A stretch of 20,708 nt of DNA from a virus: the IMG/VR virus record IMGVR_UViG_3300021579_000152, positions 1 through 20,708 of that record, one strand, 5' to 3'. Every line of letters starts with the position of its first letter. Positions within the stretch are counted from its first letter, which is position 1. Below the pieces are notes generated by a model. That model ran no database searches. It worked only from the letters and a program-made list of their open reading frames with translations, and had not been told where the DNA came from. A program made the translations under genes and the position numbers. Below, piece by piece: positions 9,948 through 20,653 of this stretch.

Positions 9948-10772
9948 ATGGCTGGCGACTGGATCAAGATGCGCGTGGACTTGGCAACAAGTCCAAAGGT
10001 TGTACGCATGGCGTCCGCATTGTGTGCGGACAGGTTGCGCGTGATTGGTGGACTTCATGCGGTCTGGTGTCTGTTCGATGTGCACTCAACAGACGGACAG
10101 CTTGACGGGTACACGCTCGAAGCGCTCGACGAAATGATTGGTTTTTCGGGTTTTGGCGCTGCAATGTCATTAGTTGGATGGCTCGAAGATGGTGGCGATT
10201 TCCTTTGTACGCCACGGTTTGACGAGCACAACGGCCAGTCAGCCAAGCGCCGAGCTACCGAAACAGAGCGCAAACGAGAGGCCCGCAAGATGTCCGCACC
10301 AGATGCGGACAAAAAGCGGTCTAGAGAAGAGAAGAGAAGAGAAGATATATCTTCTACTGACGTAGAAGATAAGAGCGCAAGCGCACAGCGGGCCAAGCCC
10401 GCCGTTGTCACCCAACCCGAAGGCGTAAGCGATTTGGTTTGGCAAGATTTTTTGGCCGTTCGCAAAGCCAACCGCGCACCGCTCACACAAACCGCTCTTG
10501 ATGGCATTGCACGCGAGGCCAGCAAAGCGGGCATCACCTTGGCCAAGGCTTTGTCGATTTGTTGTACACGTGGATGGCGCAGTTTTAACGCGGGGTGGAA
10601 GTGGGATGACACCCAGCCCGACCAATTCCGTGTTGATGTGGCGAGGGCGACGGTGCCTGGCAGCAATATGCCTGACCCAGCACTCGAAAAAATCAAGCGT
10701 GATGCGCAAAAAGCGGTACCGCCGCCAGCCCACATCCGTGAGCAAATGCAAAGCCTGCGAGGGGTGGCGTGA
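9948..10772 (+). CDS. Phage replication initiation protein (O-like)
   Basis: 274 residues. The N-terminal domain (1-100), with GDWIKMRVDLATSPKVVRMA, LRVIGGLHAVWCLFDVHS, EMIGFSGFGAAMSLVGWL and LCTPRFDEHNG, matches the winged-helix N-terminus common in phage replication proteins. A charged, disordered linker (101-145) of Lys/Arg/Glu follows, then a C-terminal helical region with LVWQDFLAVRKAN and GWRSFNAGWKWD. It is the gene after cro, the place of O in lambda, and the linker DNA carries origin-like repeats (10324-10370). No helicase or primase motif is present, so it likely recruits host DnaB. Initiator function is inferred. Confidence 0.75.
   Translation: MAGDWIKMRVDLATSPKVVRMASALCADRLRVIGGLHAVWCLFDVHSTDGQLDGYTLEALDEMIGFSGFGAAMSLVGWLEDGGDFLCTPRFDEHNGQSAKRRATETERKREARKMSAPDADKKRSREEKRREDISSTDVEDKSASAQRAKPAVVTQPEGVSDLVWQDFLAVRKANRAPLTQTALDGIAREASKAGITLAKALSICCTRGWRSFNAGWKWDDTQPDQFRVDVARATVPGSNMPDPALEKIKRDAQKAVPPPAHIREQMQSLRGVA
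10324..10370. repeat. Origin-like repeats inside the replication gene
   Basis: Four tandem GAGAA units (10324-10343) run into a perfect 16-bp palindrome AGAAGATATATCTTCT (10340-10355), which overlaps a perfect 9-bp inverted repeat ATCTTCTAC / GTAGAAGAT (10349-10357 and 10362-10370, 4-bp spacer). AGAAGAT thus occurs three times in alternating orientation around an AT-rich centre. Lambda keeps its origin inside gene O in the same way. Confidence 0.5.
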
Positions 10773-11038
10773 CATGCGGACCTGTAACGAGCTTGGCGTG
10801 TGCCAGTCCCGAGAGTGCTTTGATTGCTTGCCCAGCGTGCGAGTCATCCAAGAAACAGCGATTCAGTGGGGTCTACAACCTCAAGTGCCTCACATGCTGC
10901 GCCAGGCTGGTGCTCAGTGCGCACCCGGACAAGAAGCAAGCCTCTGCCATGTTGGGGGCAATCGCTCGATTCAAGCAGGCCCCTTCGCGGGAATCCGTTT
11001 TGGGGTGCGTACGCCAACACCTGACGAAACAACTTTGA
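10769..11038 (+). CDS. Small zinc-ribbon phage protein
   Basis: 89 residues from a GTG at 10769 that overlaps the upstream stop by 4 bp. Cysteines in ACPACESSKKQ and LKCLTCCARLV form a CxxC...CxxC pair, expected to bind zinc. The C-terminal half is helical (QASAMLGAIARF, RESVLGCVRQHL). Similar short proteins are common in replication regions of Burkholderiales phages (recollection). A second frame starting at 10774 overlaps it completely and is discussed separately; this frame looks more protein-like in its C-terminal half. Confidence 0.7.
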   Translation: MTCGPVTSLACASPESALIACPACESSKKQRFSGVYNLKCLTCCARLVLSAHPDKKQASAMLGAIARFKQAPSRESVLGCVRQHLTKQL

Positions 11039-11078
11039 GCGCTGACGAGGTGTTGCATGCAATGCGCGAGGGCATCTT

Positions 11079-11531
11079 ATGAAAGCAATGCTTGTAAAGA
11101 CCGACAACGGCTTGCGCGGCTCGACAGCGACAGACCACGATGCGTGGGAGAAGTTCAAGCGCCGTTTGCTCACGTTGAAGCCAGGCACTTTCCTGCGCAT
11201 GGAGTGGGTGAGACCACGCAACGGTAAGCACCACCGAAAGCTCTTTGCCTTGCTCACGCTGGTGGCCGAAAACTCCGAGACCTACGACACAACGAAAAAA
11301 GCGTTGGTGGCCGTCAAGTTGGTAACTGGCCATTGCGAGCCATTCATTGACCCCAAGACGGGTGAATTGATGCAGTTGCCAAAGTCGATTTCATACGACT
11401 CGATGGAACAAGACGAGTTTGACGAGTTCTATTCCGCTGCGATTGATGGCGTGCTCCGCCACATCCTGCCGCACCTGGACAAAGTGCAGGCCGAGCGATT
11501 GATTGAAATGATTATTCAGGGGTGGGCATGA
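11079..11531 (+). CDS. DUF1367-family phage protein
   Basis: 150 residues. The family signature is visible as LKPGTFLRMEWVRPRN followed by GKHHRKLFALLTLVAENSE, then a C-terminal helical part with EFDEFYSAAIDGVL and RHILPHL. DUF1367 proteins lie in the ninR-like or recombination segment of lambdoid phages next to RusA or other resolvases; their molecular job is unknown. The next gene's ATG overlaps this stop by 4 bp. Confidence 0.85.
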   Translation: MKAMLVKTDNGLRGSTATDHDAWEKFKRRLLTLKPGTFLRMEWVRPRNGKHHRKLFALLTLVAENSETYDTTKKALVAVKLVTGHCEPFIDPKTGELMQLPKSISYDSMEQDEFDEFYSAAIDGVLRHILPHLDKVQAERLIEMIIQGWA

Positions 11532-11833
11532 AGGGTAGAACGCCAAACAAGGCTGAGAAGTCTTTTCACAACGCCGTGGCCGCGCTGGGTTGCATTGCTT
11601 GCCGTGAAGACGGCATCTTTACCGAGCTGGTGAGCATTCACCACATTGATGGCCGCACCAAGCCTGATGCGCACATGAAGGTGTTGCCGCTTTGCGCTGG
11701 CCATCACCAAGACAACACGGGCATGCCCGGATTGATTGCCGTGCACCCATGGAAAAAGCGCTTTGAAAACCGCTATGGCACCCAGCTTGAGCTTTTGGCC
11801 AAGTGCATGGAGTTGGTGGAGGTGTGCCAATGA
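11528..11833 (+). CDS. Ref-like RecA-dependent nuclease
   Basis: 101 residues from the ATG at 11528, which overlaps the upstream stop as ATGA and has AGGGG upstream; a GTG 6 nt earlier is possible. The pattern matches the globular domain of phage P1 Ref (HNH-type nuclease that cuts D-loops made by RecA): MKGRTPNKAEKSFH, CIACRED, SIHHIDG with the His pair, then LPLCAGHHQ and a final HPWKKRFENRYGT. Four zinc-ligand candidates (CxxC, C, HH) are in place. It would act with RecA in recombination or host DNA breakdown. P1 Ref has an extra N-terminal arm that is absent here. Confidence 0.85.
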   Translation: MKGRTPNKAEKSFHNAVAALGCIACREDGIFTELVSIHHIDGRTKPDAHMKVLPLCAGHHQDNTGMPGLIAVHPWKKRFENRYGTQLELLAKCMELVEVCQ

Positions 11834-12039
11834 AGCGAATGCTCGACATGGAGGATTTCCCGGTCGGAACCCGCGTTGCTACGCCAAGCGGTCGCACTGG
11901 GACGGTGACGAAGCACCGTGGTGCTGAAAGCAAGTTTGACCACTTTCAGCGCATCACCGTGGTGTTCGATGGTGGCAAGCGCAATGACATGGTGACTTTG
12001 CAGCCGCACTTGCTCGCCAAATGTCCGCCGCTGCAATGA
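11830..12039 (+). CDS. Small phage protein, possible SH3-like beta barrel
   Basis: 69 residues from the ATG at 11830, overlapping the previous stop by 4 bp. The sequence FPVGTRVATPSGRTGTVTKH, followed by HFQRITVVFDGGKRN and MVTLQPHLL, is a run of short strands of the kind seen in small beta-barrel (SH3/KOW-like) proteins. No family name is assigned. Coupled on both sides within the recombination segment. Confidence 0.65.
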   Translation: MKRMLDMEDFPVGTRVATPSGRTGTVTKHRGAESKFDHFQRITVVFDGGKRNDMVTLQPHLLAKCPPLQ

Positions 12040-12611
12040 GCGAAGCCAAGAATCAAAAGATGCAAGTCACCTTACCTTTCCCGCCCAAAGAGTTGAACCC
12101 AAACCAAAAGCCGCACTGGGCCGTGCTCGCGCGCATCAAGAAAAAGTACCGCGAACTGAGCTGGGTGCTATCCCTCAAATCCGGCCTGACACCAGAGGCC
12201 ATTGAGGGATGGAAGCAAGCCGACGTGCACCTCAACTTCTTTGCGCCAGATCGCCGCGCCCGTGATGGAGACAACATGCTCGCCGCCATGAAGGCCGGGC
12301 TCGATGGAATCTCCGACGCACTGGGGATGGACGACAAACATTTCAAAGTGACCTTCGACGTGTCAGACGACATCGGCGGCATGGTCAAAGTAACCGTAAC
12401 CAAGAGCTTGAGCATGGACAACAACTACAAGTCGGGCAACACCCGCATCCCCAAGGCCCGCCCAATCAATACCGACATTCTTTCTGGTGACTACGACGGC
12501 AAAGAGCTGCGCCCCTATGAAGGCCGACCCGGTGCCAACGACGCGCTTGCACTGCCAAGCCGAATTGGCAATGAGCTTCACTACCGTGATGGCCGCGAGG
12601 TGGAAGCATGA
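12036..12611 (+). CDS. RusA-like Holliday-junction resolvase with C-terminal extension
   Basis: 191 residues from the ATG at 12036, chosen for its 4-bp overlap; another ATG lies 15 nt upstream. Residues 10-125 are the RusA domain: VTLPFPPKELNPNQ, the acidic catalytic patch PDRRARDGDNMLAAMKAGLDG (D72, D77, D79, D90) and ISDALGMDDKHF. RusA cuts four-way junctions made during phage recombination and replication. Typical RusA ends near residue 120-130, but here about 65 more residues follow (NTRIPKARPINTD, ELRPYEGRPGANDALALPSR, YRDGREVEA) with no RusA features. The tail resembles a separate small phage protein, giving a fusion or an internal start at Met127. Confidence 0.85.
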   Translation: MSEAKNQKMQVTLPFPPKELNPNQKPHWAVLARIKKKYRELSWVLSLKSGLTPEAIEGWKQADVHLNFFAPDRRARDGDNMLAAMKAGLDGISDALGMDDKHFKVTFDVSDDIGGMVKVTVTKSLSMDNNYKSGNTRIPKARPINTDILSGDYDGKELRPYEGRPGANDALALPSRIGNELHYRDGREVEA

Positions 12612-12823
12612 GTACCAAGAACACAGGCGTGACAGCGTTTCCGTCGAAAGACCTGCCGTATAGCCCCGACGACCATAAGGGAATGACCTTGCGCGACGAC
12701 TTTGCATCCAAGGCGATGCAAGGTCTTATTGCGGCAGATGTTGAATTTACGATGTCTCCAAGGGTCGTCGCGAAGCTGGCCTATTCGCAAGCAGATGCCA
12801 TGCTGGAAGCGAGGGGCGAATGA
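12608..12823 (+). CDS. Small phage protein (MTLRDDFASKAMQG type)
   Basis: 71 residues, coupled by 4-bp overlaps on both sides. The core MTLRDDFASKAMQGLIAAD plus AKLAYSQADAMLEAR is a pattern often met in phage and prophage proteins of unknown function, normally about 70-100 residues. The N-terminus (MSTKNTGVTAFPSKDLPYSPDD) is disordered-looking. No role is known. Confidence 0.75.
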   Translation: MSTKNTGVTAFPSKDLPYSPDDHKGMTLRDDFASKAMQGLIAADVEFTMSPRVVAKLAYSQADAMLEARGE

Positions 12824-13020
12824 CTAAGTTGCCACGCCTGCCAAGAGCCGGAAACGTTCTCGAAGCCAAGTACACCGCCAAACAAATGCGCGACTACGCC
12901 CACAAGTCGGTGGCGCAATCAAACGCAACAAAGCAGGAGCCAGCACCATTGCCAGAGAAGTGCCAGCACGGCATTCGCTGGGAGCGTCGATGCTTCGCTT
13001 GCGACAAGGGGCAGCCATGA
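12820..13020 (+). CDS. Small phage protein with C-terminal Cys cluster
   Basis: 66 residues, coupled by 4-bp overlaps. The N-terminus is basic (MTKLPRLPRAGN). The C-terminus CQHGIRWERRCFACDKGQP has Cys-His and CxxC spacing able to bind zinc. No family recognised. Confidence 0.65.
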   Translation: MTKLPRLPRAGNVLEAKYTAKQMRDYAHKSVAQSNATKQEPAPLPEKCQHGIRWERRCFACDKGQP

Positions 13021-13427
13021 AGAAGCGCCAACGCCGTGTGGGCATCCACCCATTCATCAAGCAGGCCATCCGCGCCAAGTGGCGCTCAGAGACCGTGAAG
13101 GCTGAGATTCATAGCTTCATGGGGGAAGACAAGCAAAAACTCATGGATTACGCCTCCGTGCTGTTCTTCGTGGCTGGTGGGTGCGCTTTGTGGCTTGAAT
13201 GGACGGGTGACGAGCCAGACTTTCGCATCCTGCGCGGCTCCGTCAATGCTTTGGATGACATGAACGAGCGCGAAGGCATCACTCATGAAGACCGTGGAGC
13301 CATTCACAGCGGGATGCTCGCTGCCCAACGCATTCTTGAAATCACGCCCGAAGAAGTGGTCAACGATGCCGCGCTCCTGTATGCCGAGCGCAGCCGTGGC
13401 TATAAAGCGGCGACCAAACGACTATGA
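13017..13427 (+). CDS. Phage protein before the terminase genes, unknown function
   Basis: 136 residues from the ATG at 13017 (4-bp overlap). The N-terminus is strongly basic (MKKRQRRVGIHPFIKQAIRAK), followed by helices with a mildly hydrophobic stretch (LFFVAGGCALWLEW) and a C-terminal part LEITPEEVVNDAALLYAERSRG. It lies just ahead of the terminase small subunit, where a late regulator or packaging factor is often found, but I see no signature that decides between them. Confidence 0.65.
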   Translation: MKKRQRRVGIHPFIKQAIRAKWRSETVKAEIHSFMGEDKQKLMDYASVLFFVAGGCALWLEWTGDEPDFRILRGSVNALDDMNEREGITHEDRGAIHSGMLAAQRILEITPEEVVNDAALLYAERSRGYKAATKRL

Positions 13428-14014
13428 CCAGCAACCTCACCGCCAAGAACGAAGAATTCGCCGCAGGCATTGCGTCGGGTCTATCCCAAGCGCAAGCCTA
13501 CCGTCATGCTTTCCCGCAGTCCGTGCGCTGGAAAGACAAGACCGTGCATGAGAAGGCCAGCCGACTCGCAGCTGACGGCAAGGTAAAGGCAAGGATTCAG
13601 GAACTTTTGGACAAAGCCGCCGATGCGAACGACGTGACGATTGAGCGAATCGTGGCTGAGGTGGTCAAGGTGGCATTTGCCAACCAGCGCGACTTGATGA
13701 ACTGGGGACCCCAAGGTGTGAAGCTCAAGCCCAGCGAGGAATTGAGCGACGAGCAAGCCGCCGCCGTGTCAGAGGTGAGCGAGACCACCAGCGCCACGGG
13801 TGGCAGCTTGAAGCTCAAGACGCATGACAAGCTGGGAGCGCTGCGCTTCTTGGCTGAGTTGAAGGGCTACTTGGTCAAGAAGCAGGAGATCACCGGGGCC
13901 AACGGCAAGGACTTGATGCCAGAAGCGCCAAAGGGTGTGCTCATCGTGCCCGGCGTGATGAATGAAGCCGACTGGGAGACCATGATGGCCAACCGGGCGA
14001 AGGGCAACGCGTGA
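13424..14014 (+). CDS. terS: Terminase small subunit
   Basis: 196 residues. The N-terminal helix-turn-helix part (KNEEFAAGIASGLSQAQAYRHAF and VHEKASRLAADGKVKARIQELL) is the Terminase_2-type DNA-binding region that recognises the packaging site. A central helical oligomerisation region and a C-terminal tail with GVLIVPGVMNEADWE follow. It directly precedes the large subunit, with the usual gene order and a 4-bp overlap. Confidence 0.88.
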   Translation: MTSNLTAKNEEFAAGIASGLSQAQAYRHAFPQSVRWKDKTVHEKASRLAADGKVKARIQELLDKAADANDVTIERIVAEVVKVAFANQRDLMNWGPQGVKLKPSEELSDEQAAAVSEVSETTSATGGSLKLKTHDKLGALRFLAELKGYLVKKQEITGANGKDLMPEAPKGVLIVPGVMNEADWETMMANRAKGNA

Positions 14015-15402
14015 TTGCTGCGACCGAGTGGAAGCCGCTGCCCGGCGCTCAATTCCAGTTTCTGACCTGCCCGGTGTTTGAGGCTTTGATGCACGGCACG
14101 CGTGGTGGTGGTAAGACTGACACGCTCTTGATGAGCTTCGCCCAGCATTGCGGCAAGGGCTTTGGTGAACATTGGCGTGGTGTGCTCTTTCGTTTGACCT
14201 ACCCGCAGCTGGCTGACGTGGTGGCCAAGTCGCGCCGCTGGTTCTCGCAGTTTTTCCCGGAAGCCAAATTCAACAAGGCTGACTATTACTGGGAGTGGCC
14301 AACGGGTGAAATGCTGTTCTTTCGGTATGGCGCGAGCGAAGACGACTATTGGAACTATCACGGCCACGAATACCCGTGGCTTGGCTTTGAGGAATTGACC
14401 AACTGGCGTGACCTGAGCTTCTACGAGGCGATGCAATCGACCTGCCGCTCAAGTTTCCCCGGCATGCCGCGCATGGTGCGTGGTACCTGCAACCCGTTTG
14501 GCAAGGGCCACGGCTCCGTCAAAGAGCGCTTTCAGCTTGGCCGTGATGGTTCGCCATCTGGCACGGTGCTGCGCTTGGAAGGGGAGAAGCCACGCGTCGC
14601 CATCCGCTCGACCATTTACGAGAACAAGGTTCTCTTGGCCAATGACCCCGATTACTTGGCCACGCTCGAAGCGCTCAAGGACCCCAACCGCCGCAAGGCT
14701 TGGCTCGAAGGTGACTGGGACATCCACGTGGGCAGCTTCTTGGAAGGCGTGTGGGATGCCAAGCGCCATGTGGTTGAGCCGTTCCCTATTCCATCGACGT
14801 GGAAGGTGTGGAAGGCAATGGACTGGGGTTATGCCCGGCCCTATGCCGTGTTGTGGTTTGCAATGGACCCGGACGGTGTGCACTACATCTGGCGCGAGCT
14901 CTACGGTATTGGCGAGAAGCCCAACGAGGGCAGCCGTGAGCATGCAGGCAAGGTGGCCACAAAGATCAAGAACATGGAAGAACGCGACGAGCGCATGGGG
15001 TACGAGTACCGCATGAACTTGGCCGACCCTGCCATCTTTTCCAAGATCGGTGCGGACCGCTCTATTGGCCAGATATTCCGTGAGACAGGGGTGAAGTGGC
15101 AAGAGGCATGGAATGCCAAGGGCTCACGCGTGAACGGTGCCCAAGAAGTCATCCGGCTTTTGTCCGAGAACAAGCTCAAGGTGTTTTCAACCTGCAAGCA
15201 CTGGCTTCGCACTGTCCCCAGCATCCCGCCTTCGGACGACAACCCGGAAGACGTGGACACCGACGCAGAAGACCACGCATGGGACACCACGCGCTATGGC
15301 GTGATGCGCCGCCGCCGCTCGCCAGAGAGTGAACAAATGTCCGTTGACTATGACGAACCGACACAAAAATACGACGACGACACATTCAGGATGAAGGTAT
15401 GA
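14011..15402 (+). CDS. terL: Terminase large subunit
   Basis: 463 residues from a GTG at 14011 (GTGA overlap with terS). The ATPase domain has a Walker A motif GTRGGGKT (29-36), Walker B YPWLGFEE with Glu127/Glu128, and a coupling motif TCNP (159-162). The RNase H-like nuclease domain has Asp271 in MDWGYARP, Asp339 in LADP, and acidic residues in AEDHAWDTTRYG (about 419-430). The protein is the packaging motor that translocates and cuts phage DNA at the procapsid portal. All key residues are present, so it is likely functional. The next gene overlaps by 4 bp. Confidence 0.95.
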   Translation: MIAATEWKPLPGAQFQFLTCPVFEALMHGTRGGGKTDTLLMSFAQHCGKGFGEHWRGVLFRLTYPQLADVVAKSRRWFSQFFPEAKFNKADYYWEWPTGEMLFFRYGASEDDYWNYHGHEYPWLGFEELTNWRDLSFYEAMQSTCRSSFPGMPRMVRGTCNPFGKGHGSVKERFQLGRDGSPSGTVLRLEGEKPRVAIRSTIYENKVLLANDPDYLATLEALKDPNRRKAWLEGDWDIHVGSFLEGVWDAKRHVVEPFPIPSTWKVWKAMDWGYARPYAVLWFAMDPDGVHYIWRELYGIGEKPNEGSREHAGKVATKIKNMEERDERMGYEYRMNLADPAIFSKIGADRSIGQIFRETGVKWQEAWNAKGSRVNGAQEVIRLLSENKLKVFSTCKHWLRTVPSIPPSDDNPEDVDTDAEDHAWDTTRYGVMRRRRSPESEQMSVDYDEPTQKYDDDTFRMKV

Positions 15403-17306
15403 ACTTGCCCCAAGATAACGCTAACTCAACGCAGTACGAACAACCCAAGCCGGATGAATTGGCTAAGACTTGGGGCAAACGTATCAGCAGCGCCCTTGCG
15501 TACTGGGACAAGTTTCACAAGCGCGTGCGCCACAACCGCAAGACCGTGGCTGGCTTTGACTGGACCAAAGACCCAGATAGCAAAGACTTCTACAAGCTGC
15601 GCGCCAACCTGATTCACGGCACCATCACCGCCGTGTTGCCCAGCATCTACGCCCGCAACCCTGAGATCAGCGCGACCCCCATCTACAAGTCCGACAACCT
15701 CAAGTTGTTTTGCAAGACGCTGGAGACCGTGACCAACCGTTGCTTGGATGAAGCCAAGCTCAAGGCCCGTGCCAAAGCCACCGTGCGCAGCGCGCTGACA
15801 TCGAGCTTTGGCGTGGTCAAGGTGATGTACCAGCGCGACATGCAGCAAGACCCATTGATTCAATCGCGCATCAATGACACCCAAGACAACATTCAGGAGA
15901 TCGAGCGCCTGATCGCCACGATTGACGACCCAGACCAGCGCAGTGATTTGGAGTCCAACAAAGAGCAGTTGAACCAGACCATGCAGGCGCTCAAAGAGAA
16001 GGTGGAAGTCACCGCCTCAGAGGGCTTGGTGATTGACCGCGTGTTGACCGACCACCTCATCATCGACCCAAGCGTTTGCGAGTTTGATGACTACCGCGAC
16101 GCAGGCTGGATGGCCCAGATTATTCCAATGAAGCGCAGCGAGGCAGAGGCCCGCTACAAGATGAAGTTGGACAAGGCCAAGGCATACACAGACAACCAGC
16201 AGATGCCCAAGAAAGATGGCCGCATTGCCACGGGTGCTGCGAGCTTGGAAGAAGACAAGCAAATCGCCGTGATTGAGATTTGGGACAAGACCAGTGACCG
16301 CATTTACACCATGGCCGAGGGTTGCGATTACTGGCTCCGTCCTCCTTTCTCGCCCAAGAAGTCGGGCTCGCGTTGGTTCCCATTCTTCTTGCTGCCGTTC
16401 CAAGTGGTCGATGGCCAGCTCATTGCGCCGAGCTTGGTTGACCTGACCGAACGACTGCAAGACGAGCACAACGACGCACGTGACCGCTTCAACAAGCACC
16501 GCAACTTGTGTTTGCCCGGCTGGATTGCTGGCTCCGATGTCAACGACAAGTCCATCAAGCGCTACACGGACAGCGAGCTTGGCGAAATCACCATCATTGA
16601 CACCGAAGGCAAGCCGCTTTCGCAAGTCATTCAGGCTCGCCAGCATCCACCCATTGACCCCGTGGTCTACGACACCAGTGCCGTGCGCTACGACTGGGAG
16701 CAAGTCACTGGGTTGCAAGATGCCGCACGCTCTAGCGTTGTCACGCCCAAGACTGCAACCGAGGCCAGCATCATGCAGCAAAGCCTATCTGGTCGCGTGT
16801 CCGAGTTCCGTGATGGCGTGGAAGACTGGTTGCAAGAGCTGGCTCAGTACGCCGCTCAAATCTTGCTGCAAGAGCTCACGCCTGCGCAAGTTGAGCGAAT
16901 CATGGGTCCATCCGAAGAACAGAGCATTGACACGGGTGGCCAGCAAATGATTGTTGAGGTGAAGTCCTACGACTGGCCGCAGCTCACCAAAGACCAAGTG
17001 TTTGAAATGGTCCAGCTGCAAATCCGCGCTGGCACTACGGGTGCGCCCGACAAGTTGGAGCAGCAAGAGAACTGGTCCCGCGCCTTGCCAATCATTCAAG
17101 GCTTGGTGACTCAAATCCTGCAAGTGCGAGCGCAAGGCATGGATGCCGAGCCCCTTGTCAATCTCTTACGCGAAAGTCTCAAGCGCTTTGACGAGCGCCT
17201 TGACGTGGAGCAATTCATTCCGAAGGCTCCACAACAAATGCAGATGCCTGCCATTCCCGGCATGCCTGCCACCGGGCCCATGGGCCAACCACAACAAGTT
17301 TCTTAA
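15399..17306 (+). CDS. Portal protein
   Basis: 635 residues, longer than siphophage portals of about 400-500 and nearer to podovirus-like portals. Landmarks: an N-terminal region with RISSALAYWDKFHKRV, an RSALTSSFGVVKVMYQRD segment, a coiled insertion (IQEIERLIATIDDPDQRSDL), a central part SRWFFP-like around GSRWFPFFLLPFQ and DLTERLQDEHNDARDRFNKHRN, and a C-terminal Met/Pro/Gln-rich tail. It follows terL directly (4-bp overlap), as portal genes normally do. It forms the ring through which DNA enters the head. Identity comes from context and the general pattern. Confidence 0.85.
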   Translation: MNLPQDNANSTQYEQPKPDELAKTWGKRISSALAYWDKFHKRVRHNRKTVAGFDWTKDPDSKDFYKLRANLIHGTITAVLPSIYARNPEISATPIYKSDNLKLFCKTLETVTNRCLDEAKLKARAKATVRSALTSSFGVVKVMYQRDMQQDPLIQSRINDTQDNIQEIERLIATIDDPDQRSDLESNKEQLNQTMQALKEKVEVTASEGLVIDRVLTDHLIIDPSVCEFDDYRDAGWMAQIIPMKRSEAEARYKMKLDKAKAYTDNQQMPKKDGRIATGAASLEEDKQIAVIEIWDKTSDRIYTMAEGCDYWLRPPFSPKKSGSRWFPFFLLPFQVVDGQLIAPSLVDLTERLQDEHNDARDRFNKHRNLCLPGWIAGSDVNDKSIKRYTDSELGEITIIDTEGKPLSQVIQARQHPPIDPVVYDTSAVRYDWEQVTGLQDAARSSVVTPKTATEASIMQQSLSGRVSEFRDGVEDWLQELAQYAAQILLQELTPAQVERIMGPSEEQSIDTGGQQMIVEVKSYDWPQLTKDQVFEMVQLQIRAGTTGAPDKLEQQENWSRALPIIQGLVTQILQVRAQGMDAEPLVNLLRESLKRFDERLDVEQFIPKAPQQMQMPAIPGMPATGPMGQPQQVS

Positions 17307-17330
17307 CCACCAACTCAGAAAGACCACTCC

Positions 17331-18479
17331 ATGCCACTTTGGAAACAGCGCCAGTTTTCCCGATTGATGAACCCAGCCGATGAAGGCTCAGACCTTGGCG
17401 GCGGATCAAGCGCACTGGAAAACGCCATCGACCAAGTTGGTGGGGCCGCCAACACAGACACCCCGGTAGACACCAGTGCAGAGGCATCCGCATCAAGCGA
17501 GACACCACAAGGCGGTGCCGATACCTCTGTGAATGATGACCTGCCAACAGACAAGCCGCAGTCGTCGCGCATGAAGGCATTGCTCGACACGCTATCTGGC
17601 GACAAGCCTGCCGAGCAGCCTGCCGCCCCCAAGGTGGAAGTGCCTGCCGACGAAGAAGCCGCCAACACAGACGACAAGCCTGCCGTCGCTGGCGACGCGA
17701 CAAAGACCGTCGAGCAAGAAGAAAGCGAATTGCTCGAAGGCGTGAAGTCCGAGCGCGGCAAAGAGCGCATCCGTCAAGTGTTCGCAGAGCGCAAGCAGCT
17801 AGAGCAAGACGTGACCGAGTTCAAGCAGTTGGTGACATCCACGGGCATGACACCGCAAGACTTTGCGCAGACCTTGGAGTTTGGCCGCTTAATGAACTCG
17901 GGCAAAGAGACCGACTTGCGCGTGGCCTTGGAAATGATCGAGGGCCAGCGTGCCGCGTTGTATCAAAAGTTGGGTGTGGAAGCGCCGGGCATTGACTTGC
18001 TCGAAGGCCAAGACGACCTCAAGGCAGCGGTGGACAACATGGAGATCACGCGCGACAAGGCCGTGGAGTTGGCCAAGTACCGCAAGACCGAAGCTGCCAA
18101 GACGCAGCAGGCCCAGCAAGTGCAGCAAACGCAAGAGCAGCACCAGCAGTACCAGCAGACCGTGCAAACCGCTGCAAGCGCCATGGAAACCTACCTTGAC
18201 ACGCGCAAGAACGAGGTGGACCACCCAGCGCGCATGAAGGCAATCAGTGAGCACTTTCGCAACCCTGCCAACCTGCAAGCCTTCGTGAGCACCTACCAGC
18301 CAAACCAGTGGGCCGCCACCATCAAGATGATGTATGACGGCATCGTGGTGCCCAAGGCTCCAGTGGTGACGCATGAGCAACCCATGCGCTCACGCCCGGC
18401 CACGCTTGGCACGCCAACCGCTTCATCCGCAAATCCCATCGACCGCCTCGCGCAGCGTATGGACAACATGGGCTTGTGA
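17331..18479 (+). CDS. Capsid scaffolding protein
   Basis: 382 residues. Residues 15-140 are low-complexity, acidic and rich in Ala/Ser/Asp/Pro. Residues 140-215 are helical (ERGKERIRQVFAERKQLEQD). Residues 255-285 are a Gln-rich coil (AQQVQQTQEQHQQYQQ). A C-terminal part with MDNMGL follows. This long, helical, charged layout between portal and major capsid genes is typical of scaffold proteins that shape the procapsid and then leave. No protease motif seen. Its start has AAGACCACTCC upstream, identical to that of the ERF gene. Confidence 0.75.
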   Translation: MPLWKQRQFSRLMNPADEGSDLGGGSSALENAIDQVGGAANTDTPVDTSAEASASSETPQGGADTSVNDDLPTDKPQSSRMKALLDTLSGDKPAEQPAAPKVEVPADEEAANTDDKPAVAGDATKTVEQEESELLEGVKSERGKERIRQVFAERKQLEQDVTEFKQLVTSTGMTPQDFAQTLEFGRLMNSGKETDLRVALEMIEGQRAALYQKLGVEAPGIDLLEGQDDLKAAVDNMEITRDKAVELAKYRKTEAAKTQQAQQVQQTQEQHQQYQQTVQTAASAMETYLDTRKNEVDHPARMKAISEHFRNPANLQAFVSTYQPNQWAATIKMMYDGIVVPKAPVVTHEQPMRSRPATLGTPTASSANPIDRLAQRMDNMGL

Positions 18480-18506
18480 GCCTCAACGTAACTGAAAGAA
18501 AACACC

Positions 18507-18881
18507 ATGGCATTGACCGACTTAAAAATCACCAAGGCAGAAGCCAAGAAGGAATCCAAGGAATACGCCCTTGCTGGCCCCGGCGAAGGTGAGCGCTATT
18601 CATACGGCACGCGCCTGACGCTGGACGATGCAGAGCTCAAAAAGCTGGGTATCACAGAGCTGCCAGCCGTGGGCACCGTGCTCATGTTTGAAGCCAAAGC
18701 CAAGGTGATTAGCTCGCGCCAATCAGCAAGCGAGAACTCGAACAACCGAAGCATTGAATTGCAAATCACGCACATGGACTTGGAGCTCGACGAGCTTGAC
18801 GAGGAAGTGGACGAGGGCGAGTTGACCCGTGGCCAAGCGGGTGCAATGAGCAAGGTTGCAAAAAAGATGCAATCAATGTGA
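18507..18881 (+). CDS. Capsid staple/decoration-like protein
   Basis: 124 residues. The opening MALTDLKITKAEAKKESKE, then GERYSYGTRLTLDDAELKKLGI and strands VGTVLMFEAKAKVISSR and IELQITHMDLEL, fits small phage capsid proteins annotated as capsid staple proteins (recollection of the pattern, not a search). The C-terminus is very acidic and then basic. It lies between scaffold and major capsid genes. A strong terminator begins at the stop codon. Confidence 0.65.
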   Translation: MALTDLKITKAEAKKESKEYALAGPGEGERYSYGTRLTLDDAELKKLGITELPAVGTVLMFEAKAKVISSRQSASENSNNRSIELQITHMDLELDELDEEVDEGELTRGQAGAMSKVAKKMQSM

Positions 18882-18925
18882 ACAAATATCCGTCGGTGTA
18901 TTGACTGACGCATATATTTGTTTTT
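18882..18925 (+). terminator. Terminator before the major capsid gene
   Basis: ACAAATAT (18882-18889) pairs with ATATTTGT (18914-18921). Inside, CGTCGGT (18891-18897) pairs with ACTGACG (18904-18910, one G-U), and a T run follows (18921-18925). The outer stem starts right after the stop codon of the staple-like gene. Confidence 0.6.
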
Positions 18926-19184
18926 ACCAAGTCCTGCATCGTTGTGGTGACTGAGTTGTAAAGAGCGTAAGCGGAGTTCGCCAGCCGCAACAACCCAGCC
19001 ATTACTTCGATGCGGAACATGCCTCAATTACCGCTGTCACCGCTGGGGTCGCGTCCAGTAGCGCAAAGCGTCTTGGCAAAAGCTGTACCCGAAGTCGCGT
19101 CGGGAGCCGAGAAGCTGAATCGAAGGGTTTGCGTCCCTTCACGGCATGAAAGGTGTTTTTTAACTTTTCATTCGGAGCAGTGAC
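18926..19184 (+). ncRNA. Candidate structured leader ahead of the major capsid gene
   Basis: About 260 bp with no convincing gene. Several hairpins can be drawn on the + strand: GCATCG/CGATGC (18936-18941 with 19008-19013) enclosing GTTGTGG/CCGCAAC (18941-18947 with 18985-18991); CTGG/CCAG (19043-19058); CCCGA/TCGGG (19088-19104, 7-nt loop); and GAAGGG/CCCTTC (19122-19140, 7-nt loop) inside GCCG/CGGC. The last two loop regions before the capsid gene share GTCGCGTC (19048-19055 and 19094-19101). A hairpin ATGAAAGG/CTTTTCAT precedes the GGAG of the capsid gene. No known RNA family is recognised. Confidence 0.35.
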
Positions 19185-20231
19185 ATGCCTATTTCAAACG
19201 CAGACTTGCAAGAGCTGGCCAAAGTATCTTTGGACGAATACTTGCGCAACATGCCCGTGGACCAAATCGCCACGGAGCGCCCTTTGCTGAAAAAACTCAT
19301 GGAAGGTCGCAAGTCCTTCATGGGTGCCCGTCAGAACGTTGTGGAGAACATCCGCAAAGACTACGGCAGCAACTTCAACTGGGCATACGGCGAAGCAGCC
19401 GTGGCCTTCAACAAACGCAACACCACTGAGCAAGCCGCATTCCCATGGCGTCGTGCTGTTGATGGCTTGTACCTCGACTATGACCGCTTGTTTGGTGCTG
19501 GCATCAAAGTGCGCGAAGGCGACAAGGGTGCATTCAAGCTGGAGCAGAACGAGAAAGTTCAACTGTTGAACTTGCTCGACGAGCAGATGGAGTCTTTGAA
19601 AGAAGGCTTCATGCAAAAGCTGGACATGGAATTGCACCGCAGCGGCACCCAAAGTGCTGACGCTGTGACTGGCTTGGATTCCTTGATCTCCATTGCGCCT
19701 ACGACTGGCGTTGTGGGTGGCTTGGACCGTGCGAGCGCTACTTACTGGCGCAACTACGCTGAGACCGCGATTCAAACTGGAACCGCTGGTACGTTGGCTC
19801 AACGCATGGAATTCGCATGGCGCAAGGCTATCAAGCACGGCGGCTCGCCCAACTTCATCTTGGCTGGTGGCAAGTTCATTGACGCGTACCGCAAGGAAAT
19901 CACCGTCACGAACATGGCCGATGCCAAGAGCGTCAAGACGCTCGATGCGGGTGTGGGTTCTGGTGTGAACACTGGTTTGTTCTTCAAGGGCGTGGAAATC
20001 ATTTGGGACCCCTCATTTGAAGACCTCGACGCTTTGGAAACTCCAACCGTCCAGTGGGAAAAGCGCTGCTACTTCTTGAATACCAAGTATTTGAAGTTGC
20101 GCGACGACGACATGGACATCGTGACGCCTATCCGTCCTCACGACGTGTTGGCCATGTACGCGATGGTCAACTTGCGCTTGGCTCTGTCCTTGAGCCGCAG
20201 CAACGCGCAAGCTGTCCTCGCAATCGCCTAA
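19185..20231 (+). CDS. Major capsid protein
   Basis: 348 residues, ATG with GGAG 7 nt upstream. The N-terminal arm is helical (LQELAKVSLDEYLRNMP, MEGRKSFMGARQNVVENI). Then come FNWAYGEAAVAFNKRN, GLYLDYDRLFGAGI, a helix LLNLLDEQMESLKEGFMQKLDMELHRSG (shown by MELHRSG), and strands SPNFILAGGKFIDAYRKE with GVEIIWDPSFEDLD near the C-terminus. This fits HK97-fold phage capsids. Size and place after scaffold and staple genes support the call. Codon use looks strongly biased, as expected for the most abundant virion protein. A strong terminator follows. Confidence 0.85.
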   Translation: MPISNADLQELAKVSLDEYLRNMPVDQIATERPLLKKLMEGRKSFMGARQNVVENIRKDYGSNFNWAYGEAAVAFNKRNTTEQAAFPWRRAVDGLYLDYDRLFGAGIKVREGDKGAFKLEQNEKVQLLNLLDEQMESLKEGFMQKLDMELHRSGTQSADAVTGLDSLISIAPTTGVVGGLDRASATYWRNYAETAIQTGTAGTLAQRMEFAWRKAIKHGGSPNFILAGGKFIDAYRKEITVTNMADAKSVKTLDAGVGSGVNTGLFFKGVEIIWDPSFEDLDALETPTVQWEKRCYFLNTKYLKLRDDDMDIVTPIRPHDVLAMYAMVNLRLALSLSRSNAQAVLAIA

Positions 20232-20245
20232 CCAGTGATTGAGTC

Positions 20246-20278
20246 ACCCCGGCAGATTCAACCCTGCCGGGGTTTTTT
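20246..20278 (+). terminator. Terminator after the major capsid gene
   Basis: A perfect 10-bp stem ACCCCGGCAG (20246-20255) / CTGCCGGGGT (20264-20273) with an 8-nt loop and a T run to 20278. Together with the hairpin at 18882 it brackets the capsid gene. Confidence 0.9.
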
Positions 20279-20305
20279 GAAACCGAGAGCAATGCGAGGT
20301 ATGCA

Positions 20306-20653
20306 ATGAGCAATGTGAATGTCCCCCTGATTAACGTCACCATCCGACGTGATGCAAACACCATCACCCCAGTGACCATTCCCCCTTACGAAATGATCGT
20401 TCTGCGCAAGCTGTTCGGCAAAGAGAACGTGTCAGAAGGCGATGCCGCTGGCGTGATTTCTATTGACGGCGATGGCGAGTTCGAGCGCTTGAGTGCCAAG
20501 TACGGCAGCGACGTGGTTGCCAACGTGTATGGCGACGACGAAGGCGCACGCTTGGCCGAGTTGGTTGAGAAGGTTGTCGTTGAAGACGAGCCTTTGGCAA
20601 AACAAGCCGCAGGCAAAAAAGCCGCACCAGCCACCGACACACAAAACGCCTAA
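20306..20653 (+). CDS. Small head-region protein, unknown function
   Basis: 115 residues, start ATG at 20306. The N-terminal half is beta-rich (NVPLINVTIRRDANTITPVTIPPYE) followed by MIVLRKLFGKENV, then an acidic region and a Lys/Ala-rich tail (QAAGKKAAPATDTQNA). Proteins like this often follow the major capsid gene; a head-completion or head-tail role is inferred only from position. Confidence 0.7.
   Translation: MSNVNVPLINVTIRRDANTITPVTIPPYEMIVLRKLFGKENVSEGDAAGVISIDGDGEFERLSAKYGSDVVANVYGDDEGARLAELVEKVVVEDEPLAKQAAGKKAAPATDTQNA

Follow-up and report, generated by a model that had tools for sequence, protein, structure and literature searches.

The window, by which we mean the whole stretch of DNA analysed here, is a virus record of 20.7 kb from IMG/VR. 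A host-like efflux-pump gene precedes the tRNA-Leu and integrase genes (786-2074), an arrangement that resembles a prophage's left end at a tRNA-Leu site. The genes and signals used below were located as follows (MCP, major capsid protein):

786-872: tRNA-Leu
1040-2074: integrase gene, with packed phage genes after it
14011-15402: terminase
15399-17306: candidate portal protein, 635 aa, directly 3' of the terminase, assigned by position and size only
17331-18479: probable scaffold, assigned by position
18507-18881: Gp10-like protein, 124 aa
19185-20231, + strand: MCP gene, 348 aa, matching PHROG 9953 major head protein (E 3e-34)
20246-20273, + strand: intrinsic terminator 3' of the MCP gene, 10 bp followed by TTTTTT

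We found no similar DNA among named phages; MCP relatives in named phages reach only ~21-27% identity, and the leaders of those inspected are short or unrelated. The relatives in named genomes are Burkholderiales prophages (Polynucleobacter, Oxalobacter, Achromobacter, Pusillimonas and Quisquiliibacterium), and the window's relatives outside Polynucleobacter are referred to as group 1.

A structured RNA in the gap before the capsid gene

The gap before the MCP gene spans 303 nt (18882-19184) and is by far the largest intergenic gap across 9948-20653, where the runners-up measure 74 and 40 nt. The original prediction, which took it for a 260-nt stretch and the sole long gap of the right arm, was thus right about the outlier and wrong about the length, and the second terminator that it placed at the close of the capsid gene is real (20246-20273). 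We distinguished the following parts in the gap:

18882-18921, + strand: promoter-like block with AAATATCC (18884-18891), TTGAC (18901-18905) and TATATT (18913-18918; AATAAT in most relatives)
18933-19015, + strand: 5' domain, the long hairpin P1, with covarying pairs 18934-19015, 18939-19010, 18940-19009, 18956-18993 and 18959-18990
18965-18988, + strand: HP-A, the apical unit of P1, GCG-UAA-GCGG...UUCGCC...CCGC
19018-19148, + strand: core domain, with P0 as its closing helix (19018-19023 with 19143-19148; 93% paired, both-side changes in 4 of 7 pairs)
19030-19041, + strand: joining strand J1, GUCGCUG in most relatives and ACCGCUGUCACC in the window, with a near-invariant CGC..G
19042-19059, + strand: HP-B, loop GUCGCG (19048-19053), 99.7% paired, pairs 19043-19058 and 19044-19057 with z 18-20
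19061-19065, + strand: GCGCA, 5' strand of the pseudoknot PK1 (partner 19130-19134)
19067-19116, + strand: HP-C, outer stem 19067-19077/19106-19116 (82% paired), inner stem 19088-19092/19100-19104 (98% paired), both-side changes in nearly all pairs, loop AGUCGCG
19122-19140, + strand: HP-D, loop UUUGCGU, 92.5% paired, double changes in 5 of 5 pairs; 19130-19134 is the 3' strand of PK1
19148-19169, + strand: P3, a hairpin adjoining the SD, 99% paired, double changes in 3 of 4 pairs
19173-19187, + strand: MCP ribosome-binding region (RBS), GGAG (19174-19177), spacer CAGUGAC and AUG; possible 3' strand of a second pseudoknot, PK2, with J1

The MFE of the gap was -106.3 kcal/mol on the + strand, compared with -90.4 +/- 4.6 kcal/mol for shuffled sequences (z -3.4), and folding on the - strand gave a z of -2.6. 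Read on the + strand, the stems are rich in G-U pairs (HP-B, for instance, has one at both ends), which favours the + strand as the RNA. Across relatives, the distances from HP-B to the MCP ATG were evenly split over the three frames (19/18/17), so the region is non-coding, as had been supposed. GTCGCGTC occurs twice (19048-19055 and 19094-19101), both times in or beside a hairpin loop, which agrees with the two hairpins of shared loop sequence first noticed by eye, and the further hairpins are present at 18933-19015 (the long one on the 5' side), 19042-19059, 19088-19104, 19122-19140 and just before the SD. The stretch 18882-19184 is real, non-coding and structured.

To assess the pairing across relatives, a covarying structure was derived from an alignment of 33 sequences and turned into a covariance model, with which 52 sequences were realigned. 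In this second alignment, which is biased towards its own model, 92% of cells pair and the covariation score was 0.516, against 0.176 for shuffled partners and 0.05-0.09 for slid partners. PK1, which is absent from the model and joins GCGCA (19061-19065) to UGCGU (19130-19134) in the HP-D loop, was 100% paired with 25 double changes in the 33 sequences, and its three varying pairs had z values of 11.7-15.4. Covariation strongly supports the closing helix, three stem-loops and PK1, and since compensatory changes exceed both the shuffled and the slid controls, this is a structured RNA beyond chance folding. Conservation of pairing in relatives, which the original prediction had named as its check, was thus found, and the conserved RNA, with its covarying stems, sits where a leader of the capsid gene would. 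We also considered that CGCUG and UAGCG might pair at the foot of HP-B, and discarded this because PK1 covariation in the CAGGAC variants contradicts it.

A search of Rfam (release 15) at the gathering score gave no match in the window or in 16 relatives except a tRNA and a host tmRNA, and 18882-19184 had no match up to E=10. We found no description of the leader RNA in the open-licence literature.

Promoter-like block and distribution of the leader

The hairpin at 18882-18924 had been taken for a strong terminator opening the gap. It folds well in the window and its closest clade, where the AT-rich arms pair; at the other group-1 loci the complementary outer arms and the U-run are missing, and none of the pairs of the dyad is among the significantly covarying ones. 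The long hairpin being kept only in the window's clade, the terminator does not hold up as a family feature. The pieces of this segment conserved family-wide are AAAnATCC, TTGAC and AATAAT/TATATT. The arrangement AAAnATCC, 21 nt, AATAAT upstream of the RNA is common to group 1 and to Polynucleobacter prophages (the latter without TTGAC), and a search for this spacing near the loci found it mainly in these two. A scan of the window for consensus sigma70 promoters found none; among 73 leaders of distant relatives (described below), 38 carried a sigma70-like promoter (TTGACA-like, 16-18 nt, -10-like), against 4.8 +/- 2.0 in shuffled sequences, at 138-207 nt and mostly ~140-165 nt before the ATG. 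Because the block is shared and distant leaders have sigma70-like promoters, the opening hairpin is likelier to be part of a promoter, and 18882-18924 is more likely a conserved promoter-like block than a terminator. A dedicated promoter of the leader RNA is supported, short of proof.

Two other observations concern this upstream region. In Polynucleobacter loci such as L035, L042 and L051, a conserved hairpin region with alternative pairings, GGGCACCCC...GGGGTGGCTTGCGCACCC, lies upstream of the promoter block, ~280-310 nt before the MCP gene. In Stenotrophomonas phage BUCT555 (L330), a promoter at 1306-1335 (TTGACA, 17 nt, TAGAAT) is followed directly by a ~100-nt leader and then a distantly related MCP gene (~21% identity), which suggests that dedicated capsid promoters are widespread.

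Leader stem-loops with the shared loop type were found directly upstream at 106 of 106 distinct MCP loci (~64-100% MCP identity), and the covariance model also matched upstream of MCPs at ~40-45% identity (L146, L151 and L327). Apart from chance matches, every locus returned by scans with the core pattern and with the model lay before this MCP family; with a loose J1/HP-B core pattern, all new matches beyond the known MCP-linked loci were chance except L225. L126 and L132 appeared to be such chance matches, and L136, which lies upstream of a PF13252 capsid family and could have indicated spread to a second family, was discarded as chance because its relatives lack the core. Eight host genomes were reached via MCP loci: five had a strong match (E < 1e-28), each at the MCP, and two of these five had a second, weak match (Oxalobacter, E 0.003; Quisquiliibacterium, E 0.04), with nothing MCP-related recognised around the Oxalobacter one. 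Three Polynucleobacter host genomes gave weak or no matches with the group-1 model. In samples of ~400 genomes each from the order, the class and the phylum, all matches were MCP-linked, and none of the genomes and contigs searched had a convincing copy of the leader at another position.

In Polynucleobacter, HP-C and the 5' domain are missing; HP-B, HP-D and P0 are retained, P0 with covariation (for example GCUUCA/UGAAGC, GAUUCA/UGAAUC and GCCUUUU/AAAAGGC), and PK1 there, read by eye, is GCGU/ACGC as against GCGCA/UGCGU in group 1. Two Oxalobacter prophages (L113 and L114) have four stem-loops with UCGCG/UUGCG-type loops rather than three, at ~60-215 nt from the MCP gene on its 5' side, so that phages differ in how many units they carry. 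The start of the MCP gene itself, ATGCCnATTTC (window 19185-19196; L002-L120), is nearly invariant in nucleotides despite a 30% protein difference, as if it had a role in RNA structure or initiation.

A further scan yielded 79 more MCPs, 41-51% identical to that of L146, and the model detects ~12 of their leaders. The remaining distant leaders, read by eye, contain stem-loop units whose loops follow the pattern KUCRY(C/G). We counted 86 of them in 73 leaders, compared with 10.1 +/- 2.9 after shuffling; per 200 nt, leaders had 1.18 units and MCP coding sequence 0.18. In 33 of the 86 units, the 4-mer just 5' of the stem exactly complements the loop (GACG/CGUC, GGUG/CACC, GGCG/CGCC, CGCG/CGCG and GAUG/CAUC), against 9.8 +/- 2.6 with permuted prefixes and loops (maximum 24 in 5000), for a strict Watson-Crick pattern chosen after seeing the data and a control that ignores phylogeny; a looser test allowing G-U gave 42 against 36.8 +/- 3.2, which is not significant. 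Such pairing of a loop with its 5' flank would make each of these units an H-type pseudoknot. The HP-B unit of Polynucleobacter follows the same rule, (C/U)GCG facing the loop CGC(G/A) (50/54 standard pairs, four U-A). Its equivalent in the window's family, CGC (19032-19034) with GCG (19051-19053), is invariant and hence uninformative, and HP-C fits the rule in L016, L022, L119 and L120 and not in most members; unit pseudoknots within the window itself are supported but fall short of being proven.

Tandem units of an unrelated kind, GYMGCCG...CGGGCG, were seen in the ~250 nt upstream of a different capsid gene (PF13252 / PHROG 334; L262-L301). They number 2.5 per leader and 0 in coding sequence, and 25 of the 30 leaders have at least two; by eye, they resemble hairpins with a GCCGCCG loop that pairs with the following CGGGC. 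These are possibly a parallel invention of capsid leaders.

A joining strand complementary to the ribosome-binding region

The idea that J1 pairs with the RBS arose from the MFE fold of the window, in which the J1/HP-B region pairs at long range with bases before the ATG; that particular pairing differs from the consensus structure and was rejected. In most of group 1, J1 reads GUCGCUG and complements the bases that separate the SD from the AUG, as in L015 (GGAG-CAGCGAC-AUG). The complementarity takes in the SD in L151 and L327, is shifted and weaker in the window, and is missing from L025 and L032. The J1:RBS energy was -12.6 kcal/mol, compared with -6.7 with the spacer shuffled (0/500). Using permutations that ignore phylogeny, cognate combinations had -11.8 against -9.5 for permuted ones over 30 RBS types (0/20000) and -13.1 against -11.5 in group 1 plus three distant members (1/20000), the same test being weak in group 1 alone (1077/20000). 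J1 was the best RBS partner within the leader in 22 of 34 group-1 sequences and in only 7 of 38 of the Polynucleobacter set, where no significant J1:RBS signal was found; distant subclades such as L361 and L394 had no such pairing by eye. Support for the pairing is good but incomplete.

The CGC of J1 (19032-19034) could pair with the GCG of the HP-B loop, or J1 with the RBS, and because both pairings use this CGC they are mutually exclusive, which is the basis of the translational switch proposed here. In the main group, the complementarity between J1 and the RBS suggests such a switch; in the other groups it is weaker or absent.

Interpretation and comparison with known systems

A conserved, pseudoknotted RNA is fixed to the capsid gene. 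Its place, immediately 5' of one gene family, does not vary, and no terminator intervenes: a terminator scan between the RNA and the MCP ATG found none, and the group-1 closing helix reaches to within ~36-40 nt of the start codon. The sequence data lend support, short of proof, to the view that this RNA starts a transcript and can reach the RBS. In our reading, it is a new leader RNA that would act in cis on capsid expression. Transcription would probably begin just upstream of the leader, at the dedicated promoter, and the leader would fold into a compact multi-helix domain with PK1 (the HP-D loop and the strand after HP-B) and units with near-constant GUCGCG-type loops. J1 would have two alternative partners, the HP-B loop and the capsid RBS; which of them it takes may raise or lower capsid translation, and a protein binding the constant-loop units may bias the outcome, in the simplest case through autogenous control by the capsid protein or the scaffold. 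This whole explanation, an MCP mRNA 5' leader with a J1 switch and a loop-bound protein controlling capsid translation in cis, we hold to be an even call.

The leader might instead be a constitutive stabiliser and enhancer of expression, whose folded 5' end and pseudoknots shield the mRNA from RNases or give the ribosome a standby site, with no switch. The strong 5' fold of the gap would fit this, as would the promoter seen in relatives and the terminator after the MCP gene, which would give a separate capsid transcript for the product that the phage needs most; however, a simple protective hairpin needs no invariant loops, no compensated PK1 and no loops co-varying with their flanks, and we consider this reading unlikely, if worth keeping in view. 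A put- or EAR-like role, in which the leader would bind RNA polymerase while itself emerging and make it read through terminators, including the post-capsid one, is improbable. The leader does lie at a likely transcript start downstream of a promoter-like block, an intrinsic terminator does stand 3' of the MCP gene inside the morphogenesis region, and the put RNA of phage HK022 also folds, with two stem-loops, close to the promoter (PMC9378689), but put is ~70 nt long without such a pseudoknotted domain, Rfam gave no match here, the leader always ends at the MCP start codon whereas put need not, and complementarity to the RBS would be useless for antitermination.

A compact conserved fold with a likely promoter of its own would also suit a discrete phage RNA (a packaging RNA or a trans-acting sRNA) merely located before the capsid gene; a stand-alone phage RNA had been among the options of the original prediction. 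Against this speak the missing terminator before the MCP gene, the short and fixed distance to the ATG, the complementarity to the adjacent RBS and, across the genomes and contigs scanned, the want of a convincing copy unlinked to the MCP gene, and we regard it as very improbable. Scarcely credible, finally, is the loop-loop contact in which GUCGCG loops would kiss through CGCG, within or between RNAs. The loops of HP-B and HP-C are identical, but where that of HP-C has changed to CACG (L074, L075, L119 and L120) the HP-B loop remains CGCG, uncompensated, and Polynucleobacter keeps the HP-B loop with HP-C missing; the loops pair with neighbouring strands instead. The shared GUCGCG loops are real and are better read as parts of the units.

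To our knowledge, the post-transcriptional setting of capsid level in tailed phages is poorly known. It becomes directly testable with a covarying pseudoknotted RNA that precedes capsid genes in environmental phages and betaproteobacterial prophages and has a candidate strand for pairing with the RBS; the leader is also a new RNA family for annotation. As a doubtful extrapolation, a widespread group of capsid genes in tailed phages might be equipped with a dedicated promoter and a leader containing a pseudoknot; one strand of that leader would pair alternately with a constant-loop unit and with the RBS, governed by a phage assembly protein, a second, unrelated capsid family having evolved analogous tandem units. 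If true, this would amount to an RNA feedback loop matching capsid synthesis to assembly.

Among known systems, the leader of T4 gene 32 contains an H-type pseudoknot bound by the gene's own product and is an autogenous translational operator (PMC3014915). Like it, the RNA described here would be a phage mRNA leader with a pseudoknot upstream of the start codon, here one supported by covariation (PK1). The T4 leader differs in having a single small pseudoknot, placed 67 nt upstream, with A+U-rich sequence after it covering the RBS, and in serving another gene, whereas the capsid leader combines several constant-loop units with a multi-helix domain and a candidate strand for pairing with the RBS. 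HK022 put RNA likewise forms a structure in a nascent phage transcript near a promoter (PMC9378689), but its ~70 nt and two stem-loops act on RNA polymerase, and a pseudoknotted leader of ~250 nt does not fall in that class. The leader of E. coli rpsO, encoding S15 (mentioned in PMC3014915), also places a pseudoknotted translational operator before the gene of an assembly component; rpsO is a host gene with a known ligand, whereas the leader described here precedes a phage capsid gene and is a candidate operator.
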